From: an uncultured bacterium
GTDB taxonomy: Bacteria > Cyanobacteriota > Vampirovibrionia > Gastranaerophilales > Gastranaerophilaceae
Reading direction: 5' to 3'
Assembly: GCA_902794035.1 (NCBI GenBank)
Contig: CADBFN010000019.1
Span: 1 to 38,112, forward strand
DNA: 38,112 nucleotides
The notes below the pieces were generated by a model. That model was not told where the DNA came from, did not search any database, and saw nothing but the letters and a program-made list of their open reading frames with translations. Shown piece by piece: positions 28,828-38,112 of the stretch (within the stretch, counting starts at the first letter, position 1; every line of letters begins with the position of its first letter). Both the position numbers and the translations under genes were made by a program.

Positions 28828-30051
28828 CTACATACCCATATAAGATGCGAACAACGGTAAATATAATGCGGAAGCCAATACCAAAACTATTGTACCGATA
28901 ACAACAAGCATTATAGGTTCAATCATTTTAGTCATTACATCAATAATATTATCTAAAGCCTTATCAATATAACTTACTGCCTGACCTAACATATCACCCA
29001 AACGCCCTGATTGTTCACCTGTTGCAATCATAAATAATATCATTTTAGGCATTGTTCTTGTTGCACGCAAAGCAGCAGATAAATGCTGACCCTGTTGAAT
29101 TTTTACTGCAGCTTCTCCAACTTTTTGCTCTAATGTGTGATTAGTTAATGTCATATTTGCCAGATACAAACATTCCAAAATCGGAACACCCGCATCATAA
29201 GCAACCTGCATGACCGCAATAAAGTTTGCAAAGTTTGAAAACTGAATTAATTTAGACAATAAAGGCACTTTTAAAACAAATTCATCAATTTTATACTTAC
29301 TCGGTTTCCACCTGAAAACAAAATTAATCCCAACTATTGCAACAATAAATGCAGCAGGAATTGCTACCCAATTTTGCTTTAAGGTAATACCTATATCCAT
29401 TAATACCCGTGTAATCCAAGGCAACTGCATACCCATTTGGTCAAACATATCTTTAAATACGGGGAATACAAATACTAACATGACAATTACAATAAAAATA
29501 GCAAGCAAAATTACAAATGCTGGATACATCAATGCACCAATAACTTTTGATCTGATATTTGCCTGTTTATTAAGCAAATCTAAAAGTCTGTCCAAAGTTT
29601 TTTCCAGTTCACCGGCATCTTCACCTGTTTTTACAAGACCGATATATACATGCCCGAATTGTTCGGGATATTTTGCAATAGTACCGGCAAATGTACCCCC
29701 ATTCATAATTTGTCTTCTTAATTCTGCCGCAACCTGACGCATTTTCAATTTTGCAGCGTCATTTTCAATAAATAACAATGATTCAATAATCGGAATACCT
29801 GCACTTGCAAGAATTTGCAATGTAGATGTAAAATCAATTTGCTCTCCTAAACCCATTTTTGGCATTTTTGCGAGTGCTTTTTTGCCGCCTTGTTGTTTTT
29901 TTTGGGTTGTATTTTCTTCAATAATTGAAGTCGGTGTAAGCCCTAATGAACGAATCTCGGTTCGTGCATCGCGCATACTCGTTGCTTCAACCTTACCTTT
30001 TACAATATCACTTGTACCATTTTTATATGCTGTATAATTATATATCGCCAT
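28828..30051 (-). CDS. pilC: Type IV pilus/type II secretion inner-membrane platform protein (PilC/GspF)
   Basis: The 407-residue product matches the PilC/GspF family: N-terminal GKVEATSMRDARTEIRSLGL, then two repeated cytoplasmic helical domains. The first has FTSTLQILASAGIPIIESL (about 73-91) and the second FIAVMQVAYDAGVPILECL. Three membrane spans include VILLAIFIVIVMLVFVFPVF and the C-terminal LVVIGTIVLVLASALYLPLF. It is the platform turned by the PilB ATPase during pilus extension. Its ATG is 1 bp after the pilB stop. It is the last gene of pilP-like - pilQ - pilB - pilC. Confidence 0.94.
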   Translation of the reverse strand: MAIYNYTAYKNGTSDIVKGKVEATSMRDARTEIRSLGLTPTSIIEENTTQKKQQGGKKALAKMPKMGLGEQIDFTSTLQILASAGIPIIESLLFIENDAAKLKMRQVAAELRRQIMNGGTFAGTIAKYPEQFGHVYIGLVKTGEDAGELEKTLDRLLDLLNKQANIRSKVIGALMYPAFVILLAIFIVIVMLVFVFPVFKDMFDQMGMQLPWITRVLMDIGITLKQNWVAIPAAFIVAIVGINFVFRWKPSKYKIDEFVLKVPLLSKLIQFSNFANFIAVMQVAYDAGVPILECLYLANMTLTNHTLEQKVGEAAVKIQQGQHLSAALRATRTMPKMILFMIATGEQSGRLGDMLGQAVSYIDKALDNIIDVMTKMIEPIMLVVIGTIVLVLASALYLPLFASYMGM

Positions 30052-30052
30052 A

Positions 30053-32101
30053 TTATTCGCCCGCTATACCCAAGACTCTGACAAATTCGTTGATAGTAGT
30101 TACACCGTTTAATATATGTTTGATACAGGAAGCATTCAATGTCGTCATACCATGATCAACTGCGCACTCCTCTATTTCCAAATCATGAGCACCTTGTGCA
30201 ATAAGTCGTTTTATTTCCTTGGTAATAGGCATAATTTCATATATACCAAGTCTTCCTCTGTAACCCTGGAAATTACAATGATTGCATCCTCCGGCCTTAT
30301 ATAAAGTAGTGTTCATTAATTTTTCAATTTCATCTTCATCAAGCGTTATACGCATAGCTTCCTCACGCGTGCAATGATATTCTTCTTTACAATCATCGCA
30401 AAGTCTTCTTACAAGACGCTGAGCAACAACACCTGATAACGTTGAAGATACCAGATAATCTTTTGCACCCATTTCAATCAAACGGGTAACAGTAGCTGCG
30501 GCTGAATTTGTGTGAACCGTACTTAACACAAGGTGACCTGTTAAAGCTGCTGATATAGCAGTTTCTAATGTTTCATAGTCACGAATTTCACCGATTAATA
30601 TAATATCAGGGTCCTGACGTAAAATTGCTCTCATACATGAAGCAAACGTGATACCTGCTTTTACGTTTACCTGAGATTGATTTATACCGTCAAGTTTGAT
30701 TTCTATAGGGTCTTCAATCGTTGTAATATTAACTGATTCATCATTTAAACTTTTTAAAATAGAATACAGAGTTGTAGTTTTACCTGAACCTGTAGGACCT
30801 GATGTTAAAATAATACCGTTAGGACAGGATACCATTCTTGTAATTTCTTCCAAATCCTGAGCATTAGCACCCGTAAGCCTTATGACTTTATCCTCCGATT
30901 TTAAACTGACAGCAGGGGCCAAAATACGAATTACAACCTTTTCTTTCCCTGATACTGGCAGCGTATTGATACGAAAGTCATAGGTACAATCTTTATAAGG
31001 CATTGAAAAAGTACCATCCTGAGGACGTCTTTGTTCAGCAATATTCATTCTCGATAGAACTTTGAAGCGTGTAATAACTGCAGATTCAGCTTTGTCAGGA
31101 ATATCTATAGTTTTTTGCAAAATACCATCTTTTCTGTATCTTACGATATAACCATTCAGTCTTGGTTCAATATGAATATCTGAAACTTTATTATCTATAG
31201 CATTGGTTATAATTTGGTTTACAAATTTTGCAACCGTACCTGTTGAAACCAATAATTCTGCATCAAGCTGATCAGTAAGACTCAATTCCGATCCGGACTC
31301 TATTGTTTCTGTTTTTATCTGTTCCAAAATTCTTTCTGTTTGCTTTTTACGTTTTGAAAAAAATACTTCTAAAGAATTTTGAAACTCATAGTGAGTCATT
31401 AAAAGTTGTTTTGGATTTTGACCTGTAATATAAATAATTGCTTTTAAAATATCCTGCTTCAAAGGTTTTAAAACACCGACAGTTAAGGTTTTACCGTTTG
31501 AAGAAATCGGAATTACGGAATTTGTACGAATAAAATCTTCAGGCAATATATTTATATAATTTTTTTGTTCCTGTAATTGCTCTGCGGAAACAAGTTTATA
31601 CCCTGTTTGTTCTCCCAATGTAGCTTTTAAATCTGCTAAAGTTATATATCCCAATTCATACAAAGTAGAACCAATAGGAGCTCCGGTAACTTTTGATTCA
31701 GCAAGAGCTTCATCTAATTGTTCCTGAGTAATTAATTCTTTTTTTAAAAGTAATTCCCCGAGCATTCCACCTACGGGCTCAGATACCATCACAGGGGCGT
31801 CTTTTCGCTGTTCAATCTGTGGGAAATCTTCTTTAATTTGTTCTTCTTCAAGAAAATCACTCAATAATTCCTGTAAATCATCATCCCCGCCAACTGGCAT
31901 AAATCTTATCGGATTCGGAAAATATCTTTTTAATAACTGACTTATCCGCTCCATATTAGATTTTTTTGAAACAGCAACAAACAATTGTCCCTGACGAATA
32001 CTTATTGGAACAAAACGCATTTTGCTCATTGCTATTTTGTCCATTTTTTCTATGATAGTTTTATCTATACTATTTTTTATTCTTGATATAACTTCATTCA
32101 T
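30053..32101 (-). CDS. pilB: Type IV pilus/type II secretion assembly ATPase (PilB/GspE)
   Basis: The product has 682 residues. An N-terminal MshEN-type domain (about 110-180) includes GGMLGELLLKKELITQEQLD. The catalytic core has Walker A TSGPTGSGKTTTLYS (about 431-445), an Asp box, Walker B DPDIILIGEIRD (about 493-504) and the His box LSTVHTNSAAATVTRL. A tetracysteine zinc site (CDDC near 564 and CNHC near 603) marks extension ATPases rather than PilT. It powers pilin polymerisation. MshEN domains often bind cyclic di-GMP; whether this one does is not shown. It lies between pilQ and pilC. Confidence 0.95.
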   Translation of the reverse strand: MNEVISRIKNSIDKTIIEKMDKIAMSKMRFVPISIRQGQLFVAVSKKSNMERISQLLKRYFPNPIRFMPVGGDDDLQELLSDFLEEEQIKEDFPQIEQRKDAPVMVSEPVGGMLGELLLKKELITQEQLDEALAESKVTGAPIGSTLYELGYITLADLKATLGEQTGYKLVSAEQLQEQKNYINILPEDFIRTNSVIPISSNGKTLTVGVLKPLKQDILKAIIYITGQNPKQLLMTHYEFQNSLEVFFSKRKKQTERILEQIKTETIESGSELSLTDQLDAELLVSTGTVAKFVNQIITNAIDNKVSDIHIEPRLNGYIVRYRKDGILQKTIDIPDKAESAVITRFKVLSRMNIAEQRRPQDGTFSMPYKDCTYDFRINTLPVSGKEKVVIRILAPAVSLKSEDKVIRLTGANAQDLEEITRMVSCPNGIILTSGPTGSGKTTTLYSILKSLNDESVNITTIEDPIEIKLDGINQSQVNVKAGITFASCMRAILRQDPDIILIGEIRDYETLETAISAALTGHLVLSTVHTNSAAATVTRLIEMGAKDYLVSSTLSGVVAQRLVRRLCDDCKEEYHCTREEAMRITLDEDEIEKLMNTTLYKAGGCNHCNFQGYRGRLGIYEIMPITKEIKRLIAQGAHDLEIEECAVDHGMTTLNASCIKHILNGVTTINEFVRVLGIAGE

Positions 32102-32125: not shown

Positions 32126-34000
32126 TTATAAATCCAAATCTGTAATTTCTGAAGCATCTTCGGAATCAACAATTATTTGAGGAGTAATCATAATTACCAT
32201 TTCTTCTTTGCTTCTTGTAGTTCCTGTACTTCTGAAGAACATACCAATGAAAGGCAAATCACCTAAGAACGGAATTTTAGTAACATTTTTTGCTTCAACT
32301 TCCTGAATCATACCACCGATAATTAAAGTTTCACCATCTTTAATTCTGATACCTTTTAATGTTAAGTTTCTTCTTTGAAGTAAAGTTGCAGCCAAATCTC
32401 TTTGACCTTCAACCTCACCACCTGTATATAATTGGGAAGCAATAGTACTGTATTCAGGATTAATATCTAAAGTTACATATCCGTCAGGACTAATAAACGG
32501 TGTAATTGTAACTTTTATACCATTATCACTTTGAATATCATAATCCTTTTGAACCTGTGAAGAACCGGTACCTGTAGAGTCCAAATACTGAGATGTAACT
32601 TTTGATACATAATCAGATGTCAAGTCAATAACTGATTCCTGACCATTTGTAATCAGAATACGTGGATTTGCTAAAACACGTCCTTTACTATTTTCTACCA
32701 AATAGTTAATTGTCCATATTAACTGTGGAGAGCTGCTCCATTGACCATAAGAAATATCTCCTTCTGTATCTTTAGAAGTAGAAGTTCCTGAACCCATAGC
32801 CTGTTCACTGAATCCATGTCCTGCAAAGAAAATCGGATAATTTTTCCCGCCGCCGGAACTTGCGGTTCTTATACCGTCTTTAGCATTAAATGAGATATGT
32901 TTACTCATATATTGCCAGGTATTATCAAATGTTTTACTGCCGGATTCAGATAATGAAATAATCTGAACCTCTAAATAAGCCTGAGGGGCTTTCAAATCAT
33001 TTGCAGCAATATAATCTTTTATCATTTCCAATTGAGTAGGAGAACCACCGATAATCTGAATCATGCCTATAGTTGGGAAATATGAAACAGTCATATTTTT
33101 AAATGGTAAAGAAGCTAAATCTTCAGCATCAGCTTTTTGTTCAACTGAACATAACAACTTCCCACCTCCGATAGACAGCCCTTCTCCACCGCCGCCGACA
33201 CTTAAAGAATCAGAAGCAAAACCCGTAGGGACACCGGCAGCACCACCGGTTGATCCTTCTCCTCCATTACTCATAAAGGAAGGAACCAGAGTAGAACATA
33301 TCAAACCAGCCATTTCAGCAGGAGTAACATGATTTACTTTAAAATTTGTAATAGGAGGTTTTTTATCAAATTGTTCTATTACTTTTTGAGCCAACATAGC
33401 ATCAGAACGTGTTCCCATAACCAGTAATTCATTATTAGCAGGGTTTGTGGTAACTACAGGTTTTGATGATGCTCCGGGACTTATACCGGTTTTATTAAAT
33501 ATATTTTTGTTTAAGAAATCTGCAATTGACGCAGCACTTACATACTTAACAGGAACAATAATAATATCTTTTGAGCCTGCAGATGCATCAATTTCTCCTC
33601 CTTCTCCTTCTTCACCGGCCATTACCACAAGTGTATTACCCTGAATAGAATATTTTAACTTATTAGTTACAATTACCAGATTCAATGCTTTTTGTAAAGT
33701 TACATCAACCAAATCCATTGTAACTGTACCCTGAACATCCTGAGCGAATATTATATTCATACCTGCCTGATCAGCAAACATTCTCAAAACCTGAGTAACA
33801 TCCGCATCTCTAAGACTCAGATTTACGATTGAATCTGCATTTTTAATTTGAGTTTCAGAATTAATATCCATTGATTTTATTGATTGTTCCGAACGGATGA
33901 CAGGAGAACCCTGAGCATAAGCTAAAGGACCGGTTCCCATCATTAAAAATGAAACTGCCATTATACTTGCGATAAATTTTGCACCAATTTTATTTTTCAT
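32126..34000 (-). CDS. pilQ: Outer-membrane secretin (PilQ/GspD family)
   Basis: The 624-residue product has a signal peptide (MKNKIGAKFIASIMAVSFLM, then a run ending in AYA, about 1-29). An STN domain (about 48-118) contains LRDADVTQVLRMFADQAGMN. An N-domain has IIIVPVKYVSAASIADFLNK, followed by a Gly-rich loop (about 225-265). The C-terminal secretin core (about 430-615) includes ITPFISPDGYVTLDINPEYS and LQRRNLTLKGIRIKDGETLI. It would form the gated channel through which pili cross the outer membrane. The Shine-Dalgarno GGGAGC is before the ATG. The pilP-like lipoprotein gene is 26 bp upstream. Confidence 0.94.
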   Translation of the reverse strand: MKNKIGAKFIASIMAVSFLMMGTGPLAYAQGSPVIRSEQSIKSMDINSETQIKNADSIVNLSLRDADVTQVLRMFADQAGMNIIFAQDVQGTVTMDLVDVTLQKALNLVIVTNKLKYSIQGNTLVVMAGEEGEGGEIDASAGSKDIIIVPVKYVSAASIADFLNKNIFNKTGISPGASSKPVVTTNPANNELLVMGTRSDAMLAQKVIEQFDKKPPITNFKVNHVTPAEMAGLICSTLVPSFMSNGGEGSTGGAAGVPTGFASDSLSVGGGGEGLSIGGGKLLCSVEQKADAEDLASLPFKNMTVSYFPTIGMIQIIGGSPTQLEMIKDYIAANDLKAPQAYLEVQIISLSESGSKTFDNTWQYMSKHISFNAKDGIRTASSGGGKNYPIFFAGHGFSEQAMGSGTSTSKDTEGDISYGQWSSSPQLIWTINYLVENSKGRVLANPRILITNGQESVIDLTSDYVSKVTSQYLDSTGTGSSQVQKDYDIQSDNGIKVTITPFISPDGYVTLDINPEYSTIASQLYTGGEVEGQRDLAATLLQRRNLTLKGIRIKDGETLIIGGMIQEVEAKNVTKIPFLGDLPFIGMFFRSTGTTRSKEEMVIMITPQIIVDSEDASEITDLDL

Positions 34001-36451: not shown

Positions 36452-37083
36452 GCGGGTGAGGGTTGAATTTGTATTATTAGCAATTTAATGTGTATAAACA
36501 AACCATTGCAAAAAAGATACATGTCATTACGAGGAGGGCAAAGGATTGCCCGACGAAGTAATCCAGCTTTTTATTACATTAATTTTAAAAAGTATATTTT
36601 ATTCTGATTTTGAATTATAAAACAACTGGATTGCCACGCCCTGACGGGCTCGCAATGACAATTTTTTTATTTCTCCCCGAGGGGGAGAGAAATTTTTCAA
36701 TGTGAGAAATTTATTTCGAACATTTGAAAAATGAGAGAGGGTTAGATTAAAAATCAACCCCTCACCCCACCCCTCTCCCTTTGGGAGAGGGAGCAGTTCT
36801 TGAAATTTTAATTTCATAGAAATGCGGGAGAGGGTTGAATTTGTATTATTAGCAATTTAGTGCGTAGAAATGCATCCTAAATTACTATTTCAAATATTTT
36901 GTTGGGTTTCATTACATTTCACACAACCTACCTACTGCAATATTGTGAATGCCAACAATTGACCCCTCACCCCACCCCTCTCCCATTGGGAGAGGGAGCA
37001 GTTCTTGAAATTTTAATTTCTTAGAAATGCGGGTGAGGGTTGATTTGATGGGATTGCCACGCCCTGACGGGCTCGCAATGACA
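36452..37083. repeat. Cluster of dispersed non-coding repeats between two genes
   Basis: The 734-bp gap at 36352-37085 has no credible gene and is made of repeat copies. A 47-nt word at 36452-36498 recurs at 36824-36870. An 82-bp unit at 36757-36838 recurs at 36962-37043 with three mismatches; each copy has an internal CTCCC/GGGAG hairpin and outer CCCTCACCC/GGGTGAGGG-type arms. A 33-bp word at 36628-36660 recurs exactly at 37051-37083, ending 2 bp before the stop codon of the pilin-like gene. This is the style of MITE or REP clusters. Confidence 0.9.
36523..36659. repeat. MITE-like element with inverted ends
   Basis: GTCATTACGAG (36523-36533) and CTCGCAATGAC (36649-36659) are near-perfect inverted ends. 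Next to them ATTGCCC/GGGCAAA-type and TGACGGGC words can pair in internal hairpins. The 137-bp body is AT-rich in the middle and codes for nothing. Its right end exists as a solo copy at 37051-37083. Confidence 0.7.
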
Positions 37084-37085
37084 AA

Positions 37086-38112
37086 TTACAAATCACCCAC
37101 ACAAACAGCCCTGAAGTTCGCACGAAAACGATCACTGCCGTAGTGTCTAGTCGAACCAGAAAGGGAGAAACCCCGGTTGTACACGTCGATGGAGCTGTAC
37201 TCACGGCCTGACCACAAGTTGTACCAGGAGGAGCCTAAGCCGGAAAAGCTCTCAGGCAGTTTGCTGAAATCAGGGGTACCAGTGCATCTGCCAAGTCCTG
37301 TACCATAATAATTGTCATCACAGGTTGGGTAAATTGTTTTAGCTAGAGCGTATAAATCATCTTCTGTTGGCATATTTTGGACTCCGCCACACTTTTCAAC
37401 CGCTGCAGCCCAGTAATCTGTATCATAACCACATTTTTGGATTCCTAATGATTCCTTTTTAGCTTCGCATTGTGCTTTGGTCATTGGAGTTGTTATTACC
37501 TGTGGTTCCCATTTGTCAAATTGACGGCGTTTGGCTAATTTTTCTGCGTCTGTTAGTTCTCTAAGTGCACCAATTTGGGCAAGTCCTGCGTTTGTTGCAG
37601 GTTCGACCGTTCCGTTATGGAATACTATAGGATATACATCTCCGATTTTTGAACCCGTTGTTTTTAAAGTACATGGTGTGTAAACATCTAATGAAGATGT
37701 ACCGTCTGCACAGGTTACTTCTTTATTTGGCAAGCTTACTCCATTTACATCTATAAATCCGATACAGTTTTTTAGTCCGTTTTCGTCTGTAAGAATTGTT
37801 TTATTGATTGTTTGACCGCTTTCAAGGCTACAGCGTTTGGCGTTTGGATTAAAGCCGACTATTGAACCGTCTGCTAAAGTATAAAGCAGAAAATTAGTCG
37901 GGTCAAAACCGTCTGTCTTTTTAGTAAATTGGTATTTGGAATTAAAAATTGAACCATTTACCTCTCCATACACTCCCATATAATTTTTGGCTGAAAGTGT
38001 ACTATTAAACAACGCGCACATTGTTGATTGAGAATCTGAAAATTTATCACTTCCGCAGGTTGAAGGGTCGCTATCATATGTTATTGAACCGTAATCCATA
38101 TCATACTGAGCC
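37086..38112 (-). CDS. Pilin-like surface protein, 5' end outside the window
   Basis: The frame stays open to the window edge (codons for A, Q, Y, D precede the Met at 38099), so the true start lies beyond 38112. The visible ~341 residues have paired cysteines and text such as CALFNSTLSAKNYMGVYGEV, NCIGFIDVNGVSLPNKEVTC, typical of the globular part of pseudopilin-like proteins in this group. The C-terminus contains SFSGLGSSWYNLWSGREYSS and ends FRAVCVGDL, the form of a C-type-lectin/DUF1566-like fold. Its last ~130 bp look like a DGR variable region. The prepilin signal, if any, is not in view. Probably a displayed, ligand-binding protein. Confidence 0.8.
   Translation of the reverse strand, partial: AQYDMDYGSITYDSDPSTCGSDKFSDSQSTMCALFNSTLSAKNYMGVYGEVNGSIFNSKYQFTKKTDGFDPTNFLLYTLADGSIVGFNPNAKRCSLESGQTINKTILTDENGLKNCIGFIDVNGVSLPNKEVTCADGTSSLDVYTPCTLKTTGSKIGDVYPIVFHNGTVEPATNAGLAQIGALRELTDAEKLAKRRQFDKWEPQVITTPMTKAQCEAKKESLGIQKCGYDTDYWAAAVEKCGGVQNMPTEDDLYALAKTIYPTCDDNYYGTGLGRCTGTPDFSKLPESFSGLGSSWYNLWSGREYSSIDVYNRGFSLSGSTRHYGSDRFRANFRAVCVGDL
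37092..37262 (-). other. Candidate DGR variable region (3' end of the pilin-like gene)
   Basis: On the coding strand the segment from the Trp codon at 37224-37226 to the stop is GC-rich compared with the rest of the gene (31/60 and 34/60 G+C in 37141-37200 and 37201-37260, against 22/60 in 37321-37380). In the 31 codons at 37113-37205, 25 end in C or T. That is expected if AAC/AAT codons of a template were mutated at their adenines. Residues are the usual diversified set (R, S, I, D, Y, N, G, T, H), with Trp, Phe and Val-Cys-Val-Gly fixed. No template repeat or reverse transcriptase lies in the window. Confidence 0.6.

Follow-up and report, generated by a model that had tools for sequence, protein, structure and literature searches.

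Pilin-like genes with poly-G leaders and the probable variable repeats of a diversity-generating retroelement: a candidate two-layer system of surface diversification in an uncultured bacterium

The stretch of 38,112 nucleotides analysed here (the window), which is contig C19 of the draft genome of an uncultured bacterium (G000; 1.785 Mb, 47 contigs, 94.5% complete), ends in a pilin-like gene whose 3' end is very probably (at a rough 0.83) a variable repeat belonging to a diversity-generating retroelement (DGR) on the chromosome, which acts in trans on a whole family of genes for pilin-like surface proteins. Read from its sequence, the genome demonstrably holds one AAC-rich template with an adjacent Avd gene, one gene for a DGR-type reverse transcriptase (RT), and 3' ends with a variable repeat in 13 places; in 11 of these, the departures from the template sit mainly on its adenines. 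On a wider reading, whose odds are judged somewhat better than even, this belongs to a two-layer diversification of the cell surface, with about 18 pilin-like genes switched by G tracts, one DGR that rewrites up to 13 lectin-like tips in trans, and a changing hypermutated subset on display. The host of the window probably belongs to the Melainabacteria group and appears to live in gut or rumen.

The RT and Avd would copy the template RNA and make errors at A, and the resulting cDNA would take the place of the 3' end of any family gene, whereby the ligand face would be rewritten on a predicted C-type-lectin-like tip domain carried by a type IV (pseudo)pilin stalk. Slipped-strand changes in the G tract would switch single family members on or off. 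It is likely that the two layers would work together, slippage selecting the pilin and the DGR rewriting its tip.

The window gene, the template and the variable repeats

The frame of the window gene (Table 1) is still open where the contig ends, and its variable repeat stops 6 nt short of the other end of the frame, stop codon included, which places it at the 3' terminus of the target. The repeat has 53.8% GC, the remainder of the gene 38.8% and the window 33.5%, in agreement with the GC-rich, codon-atypical switch that a preliminary description of this DNA had noticed at the 3' end of the gene. The 25 NNY codons that it had counted among the 31 codons at 37113-37205 are confirmed by a recount, and the Trp, Phe and FRAVCVGD residues said to frame the segment are present in the translation. 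In the 16 other coding sequences of the window, 8 of 7659 overlapping 31-codon windows also reach 25, and the window gene upstream of the repeat has up to 24 NNY codons per 31; the NNY count by itself is weak evidence for a DGR variable region. The DGR reading of the segment is lifted well above chance by the recurrence of the same 3' end 13 times in the genome, together with an AAC-rich template. Of the extent first proposed, 37092 to 37262, homology to the template covers 37092-37234, which is slightly shorter than claimed. The 50 nt in front of the repeat are identical at 42-44 of 50 positions to nine of the 12 paralogues (the others being C18a with 36/49, C6b with 31/50 and C29 with 29/44), and the FRAVCVGD block has a single non-A difference to the template (positions 119-140). 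Searches with the window target gave no family in Pfam and no match among PDB sequences, and a fold search of BFVD had no match at E 0.001. Downstream of the target, at 36620-37085, an intergenic repeat, gattgccacgccctgacgggctcgcaatgac, is present twice, as is a CCCTCACCC-type repeat; the former is found also behind the targets C9, C21 and C6a.

Table 1. Features of the window that bear on the candidate variable repeat, with the evidence for each.
Feature	Position	Strand	Basis
Inner-membrane platform protein (T2SSF)	28828..30051	-	PF00482, E 4.3e-45
Assembly ATPase (T2SSE, MshEN)	30053..32101	-	PF00437, E 1.2e-122
Secretin of type IV filament / type II secretion system	32126..34000	-	PF00263, E 4e-39
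Probable DGR target gene, pilin-like, 341 codons present	37086..38112	-	ORF 37086-38111; 5' end off contig
Conserved 3' block FRAVCVGD of variable repeat	37092..37115	-	Alignment
Probable variable repeat, 143 nt	37092..37234	-	Homologous to 140-nt template repeat G000:C18:1215-1354
Inner part of variable repeat	37114..37194	-	14/16 non-A differences; template positions 41-118; coordinates taken from template alignment, approximate to a codon
Conserved 5' flank of variable repeat, FSKLPESFSGLG	37235..37284	-	Last 50 nt before repeat

When the genome was searched with the 3' end of the window gene, 14 strong matches were obtained, itself included, of which 13 are 3' ends of paralogous genes (the window's counted) and one is the template; the search from the template side recovers the same set, and viral contigs contained no exact match to a repeat pattern. 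The template repeat on C18 sits outside the target genes, has 38 of its 39 A at codon positions 1 or 2 in the frame of the targets, and in this frame consists of AAC or AAT in 14 of 46 codons. In eleven of the 13 variable repeats, the mismatches with it number 11-21 at A and 0-6 at non-A positions per repeat. Pooled over these 11 repeats, 187 of 429 A cells (43.6%) and 30 of 1108 non-A cells (2.7%) differ (Fisher 5e-86, which is not a true probability because the cells share ancestry), and variable columns make up 35/39 of the A and 21/101 of the non-A positions. The near-copy that the preliminary description had proposed to look for, with mismatches at adenines only, is thus found as a 140-bp copy as far as most targets are concerned, but the window's own repeat departs from this pattern at 16 non-A positions. 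C18a, the target gene next to the template, consists of two parts separated by a frame break, and C6a has a single N and an 87-nt tandem repeat inside the target gene (L036:337-445), likely an assembly join.

The pilin-like reading, already put forward from the window alone, is supported by N_methyl motifs on paralogues and by the type IV filament genes nearby (Table 1). The prepilin motif PF07963 reaches 22.4 and 22.5 bits in C3:133041 and in the in-phase gene C37 (cut-off 21.2), and 20.0 and 19.6 bits, under this cut-off, in two genes of the genus genome G021; TIGR02532 is over its cut-off in two of three genes scanned. The tip of the window gene overlaps by 40 nt with the right end of C30 and the left end of C24, both of them poly-G leaders with a prepilin motif on the contig tip, and the C6a tip does likewise. 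The same pilin stalk occurs in C3:6319 and C20:5012 (L148, L153) with other C-terminal domains, where there is neither a G tract nor a variable repeat.

The repeat of the window fits the present template poorly, with mismatches at 19 of the 39 A and 16 of the 101 non-A positions (hypergeometric p 1.1e-4), which is far from clean, and it carries a 3-nt insertion relative to the template. The other poor fit is C6a, with 19 A and 22 non-A differences. The window gene belongs to the family, but because 16 non-A positions differ, its variable repeat does not read as a clean product of the assembled template. Compared with C6a, the window gene is identical at 742 of 859 positions upstream and at 94 of 140 in the repeat (Fisher p 1.2e-7); with the other paralogues, the contrast is small (68-83% upstream over 78-843 aligned positions, 70-80% in the repeat). 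The non-A differences may be read as the result of writing from another template with AAT codons, which would have been lost, replaced, or be absent from the assembly; in a search of the own genome and the 46 genus genomes for such a second template, none was closer than the known template and variable repeats.

The main rival to this reading, with odds that fall a little short of even, is a retired copy that was once written by the DGR, is no longer overwritten and has since drifted by ordinary mutation. Ten of the 16 non-A differences are at third codon positions, eight of these being C to T, which together with the 3-nt insertion would suit such drift, as does the presence in the family of stable paralogues without template-like ends (C3:133041), but uniform drift would hit the flanks too, and 14 of the differences lie in the inner part, with only one in the first 40 template positions and one in the last 22. 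Moreover, C6a shares five of the 16 exactly, which suggests a different template common to both, although C6a has six in the first 40 positions, and the C22 and C20 repeats, which also contain one extra codon, nevertheless show no non-A difference. Far less credible, to the point of being nearly negligible, is an origin of the 3'-end differences in duplication, gene conversion and positive selection with no retroelement involved: the family has plainly been expanded by duplication and the flanks are common to the copies, but the substitutions focus on the adenines of a copy that is not a target, this copy adjoins Avd in a genome that has a DGR RT, and the same adenine focus recurs in the genus genomes G021 and G005 with other templates. 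Writing by a DGR, for the window repeat perhaps from another template, remains the preferred reading.

Retroelement machinery and its relatives

With its template, its Avd and its DGR-type RT, the genome supports the DGR variable region that had been proposed for the window, and template (C18) and RT (C30) indeed lie outside the window, as anticipated. The RT was expected beside the template; a DGR-type RT is present in the genome, but on a different contig, and it is Avd that follows the template. There is one RVT_1 gene in the genome. Its protein matches phrog_1423 (E 8.5e-99), which is labelled just 'Reverse transcriptase', and by far the closest solved structure is 8ub7 (E 1.5e-34; the next has 1.4e-09), presumably the BPP-1 DGR complex. 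The protein has the motifs IGNLTSQ and YVDD, of which the SQ is taken here to mark DGR RTs. NCBIfam gives weaker RT families, all under cut-off, the best being a group II intron RT with 104/300 bits, and PADLOC gives 56 families, with general RT homology first. The Avd-like gene downstream of the template is recognised by PF22296 (55.9 bits, cut-off 40) and phrog_3206 (E 1.7e-25), and by NCBIfam NF033474 with 62.7 bits, under its cut-off of 80. On the 5' side of the template there is a non-coding stretch with hairpins, CAGGGAGTGC..TTTTTATCACGT.. (L026:1080-1214, also L126 and L086), whose conservation extends over G000 and G005 and, in altered form, to G021. RNAalifold predicts 34 pairs in it, 7 of which are changed on both sides in at least one sequence (three sequences only), and Rfam finds two tRNAs only and no match to this element; the stretch may be part of the DGR RNA.

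Some match to the RT is found in 10 of the 46 genomes of the genus (own included), with strong matches in the own genome, in G021, in G005 (three copies) and in G025 (partial, two stops counted). Relatives of the RT in assembled genome contigs come from five loci, namely SIG32, RUG12020, Staskawiczbacteria (two) and Clostridia, of which SIG32, from the Cyanobacteriota/Melainabacteria group, has an RT of 63% identity; viral contigs contain one relative, with 36% identity. In G021, the RT and a target are on C36, and template and Avd occupy the end of C8, next to genes for ribosomal proteins whose names were read from the sequence without a family search. Relative to the template of that genome, the C36 target has 15 A and 1 non-A differences, and a second target on C19 of G021 has 16 A and 8 non-A differences. 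G005, which is another species, carries target, Avd, template and RT consecutively on one contig, with an 8-G tract joined to this complete DGR, and its repeat and template mismatch at 18 of 45 A and 2 of 79 non-A positions. Two further DGR-like RTs of 52-55% identity are on G005:C75 and C7 (L085, L087); no AAC-rich template was obvious in the stretches scanned near the further G005 RTs and the SIG32 RT (L080).

Poly-G leaders and the layout of the system

The 5' end of C6b, used as query, gives 29 matches; the leader is part of 18 of them, and in 16 of these 18 family 5' ends there is a G tract between the start codon and the prepilin motif. The tract is an uninterrupted run of 9-15 G in 14 of them and G3AG8 in C6b and C13, with the reservation that tract lengths come from draft assemblies and may be off by one; the C7 and C28 leaders are without tract and have an open frame. 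The numbers 18 and 13 are counts of ends and not of whole genes, because most 5' ends are not linked to 3' ends in the assembly. Runs of at least 9 G occur 14 times in the G000 assembly, always in leaders of the family. Among the 14 tract genes that have the pilin motif on the contig (C12 and C33 stop before the motif and were left out of the frame test), two are in phase (C37, C17) and 12 are out of phase. Tract and template-like repeat are found together on one contig in C6b (G000), C36 (G021, 10 G) and C75 (G005, 8 G), and the contig tips of C13 and C29 overlap by 97 nt. Three complete paralogues of the own genome that are without tract have a C-terminus that is not template-like, save for some 20 nt at the end of C3:133041 that do match, and there are repeats without tract in C19 of G021 and C36 of G006. 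The leaders of C4, C17, C13, C38 and C28 (L143, L149, L150, L155, L158) have about 65-200 extra codons before the prepilin motif, which look like intergenic repeats translated as protein (..RHSERSEESPELS..).

Poly-G was also considered as a DGR-specific element, which was rejected: runs of at least 9 G are present in 41 of the 46 genus genomes, and because of this the switch must be wider than the DGR. At 29 poly-G loci, one per genome, a prepilin motif follows within 900 nt downstream in six, in one of them behind a stop, and at some of the 29 the G run is directly followed by long open frames of a different phase. Many such runs per genome are found in G001 (154 overlapping 9-mers), G004, G013, G014, G029, G043 and others. 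It is possible that a store of phase-variable genes extends across the genus.

Both the layout of the DGR and the switch can be interpreted differently. RT and template-Avd are on different contigs with different neighbours in G000 (C30, C18) as well as in G021 (C36, C8), as would be expected if they were two remote loci of a trans-split DGR, which is a tentative alternative of limited probability. Repeats break assemblies at such places, however, and in both genomes the contigs end in or just past a target copy or no more than about 300 nt from the template; all parts are on one contig in G005, and the tips of C30 and C18 share an exact 22-nt dovetail. As this 22-mer occurs at five places, a single cassette RT-target-template-Avd that is broken across C30 and C18 is likely but not shown. 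As for the leaders, slippage occurs on long G runs, and the tracts could be bypassed in this way by polymerase or ribosome with constant expression, or they could be decayed leaders or artefacts of sequencing and assembly, in all of which cases they would be no switch. This is considered unlikely: the tract lengths do come from drafts, and in C4 and C13 the leader is interrupted between the tract and the pilin motif, but in the other 12 of the 14 genes the frame of the pilin can be followed back to the tract without a stop, and ahead of the tract there is a start codon that has purine-rich sequence upstream. The tract is moreover at the same site in G021 and occurs with other flanks in G005. 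A two-colour sequencing artefact in particular is thought unlikely because continuous sequence flanks the tracts on both sides, as seen at 14 places.

Comparison with known systems

In the basic DGR scheme, nothing decides which of many diversified copies is displayed; were every copy to have its own frame switch, that choice would be made. The logic of choosing a copy recalls the repertoires of antigenic variation, but here each member would be randomly mutagenised. If the system is real, surface recognition, phage attack and host binding become testable in a probable non-photosynthetic relative of cyanobacteria, which to our knowledge has not been grown in culture. Such systems may be under-counted, because draft assemblies tend to break at these genes.

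With the DGR of the Bordetella phage BPP-1, the system shares RT, Avd, template, an adenine-focused 3' variable repeat and a target whose end is predicted to be lectin-like. It differs in that no phage context is seen, that one template would serve up to 13 dispersed targets, that the stalk is a pilin and not a tail fibre, and that Avd comes after the template.

Multi-target DGRs with remote paralogues and pilus tips varied by DGRs are already in print (PMC7517822, PMC3521204, PMC6642488, PMC12632263), and the comparison also took in PMC8144416 and PMC10907252. The cyanobacterial DGRs with remote variable proteins (PMC7517822) likewise combine one DGR with dispersed paralogous targets and 3' variable repeats, but their targets are mostly predicted to be cytosolic, whereas those described here are prepilin-like and have poly-G leaders. 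The tip pilins of gut Bacteroides, as cited in PMC12632263, are likewise pilus-like adhesin tips of a host-associated bacterium that are rewritten by a DGR, but these are type V pili that start as lipoproteins, and here it is a type IV prepilin motif. Duplication of targets, and stable paralogues beside diversified ones, some of them elsewhere in the genome, are also described for multi-target DGRs in PMC3521204 and PMC6642488. The 13 repeats per template found here compare with up to four in the DiGReF set, with larger counts in PMC6642488, and PMC10907252 reports a single genome in which nine DGR loci account for 15 targets. One paper contrasts the mechanisms of DGRs and contingency loci. 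No report of DGRs in the Melainabacteria group and none of DGR targets under a homopolymer switch was found in the literature searched, which has most subscription journals outside of it and makes for a weak absence. Because no report of the latter kind was found, the new element here would be the pilin family that combines both layers, the feature of the window itself being of a known type.

The poly-G contingency loci of Campylobacter and Neisseria have, like the family described here, a G tract near the start of a surface gene that sets the frame, and the difference is that in the present case genes of the same family are also targets of a DGR.
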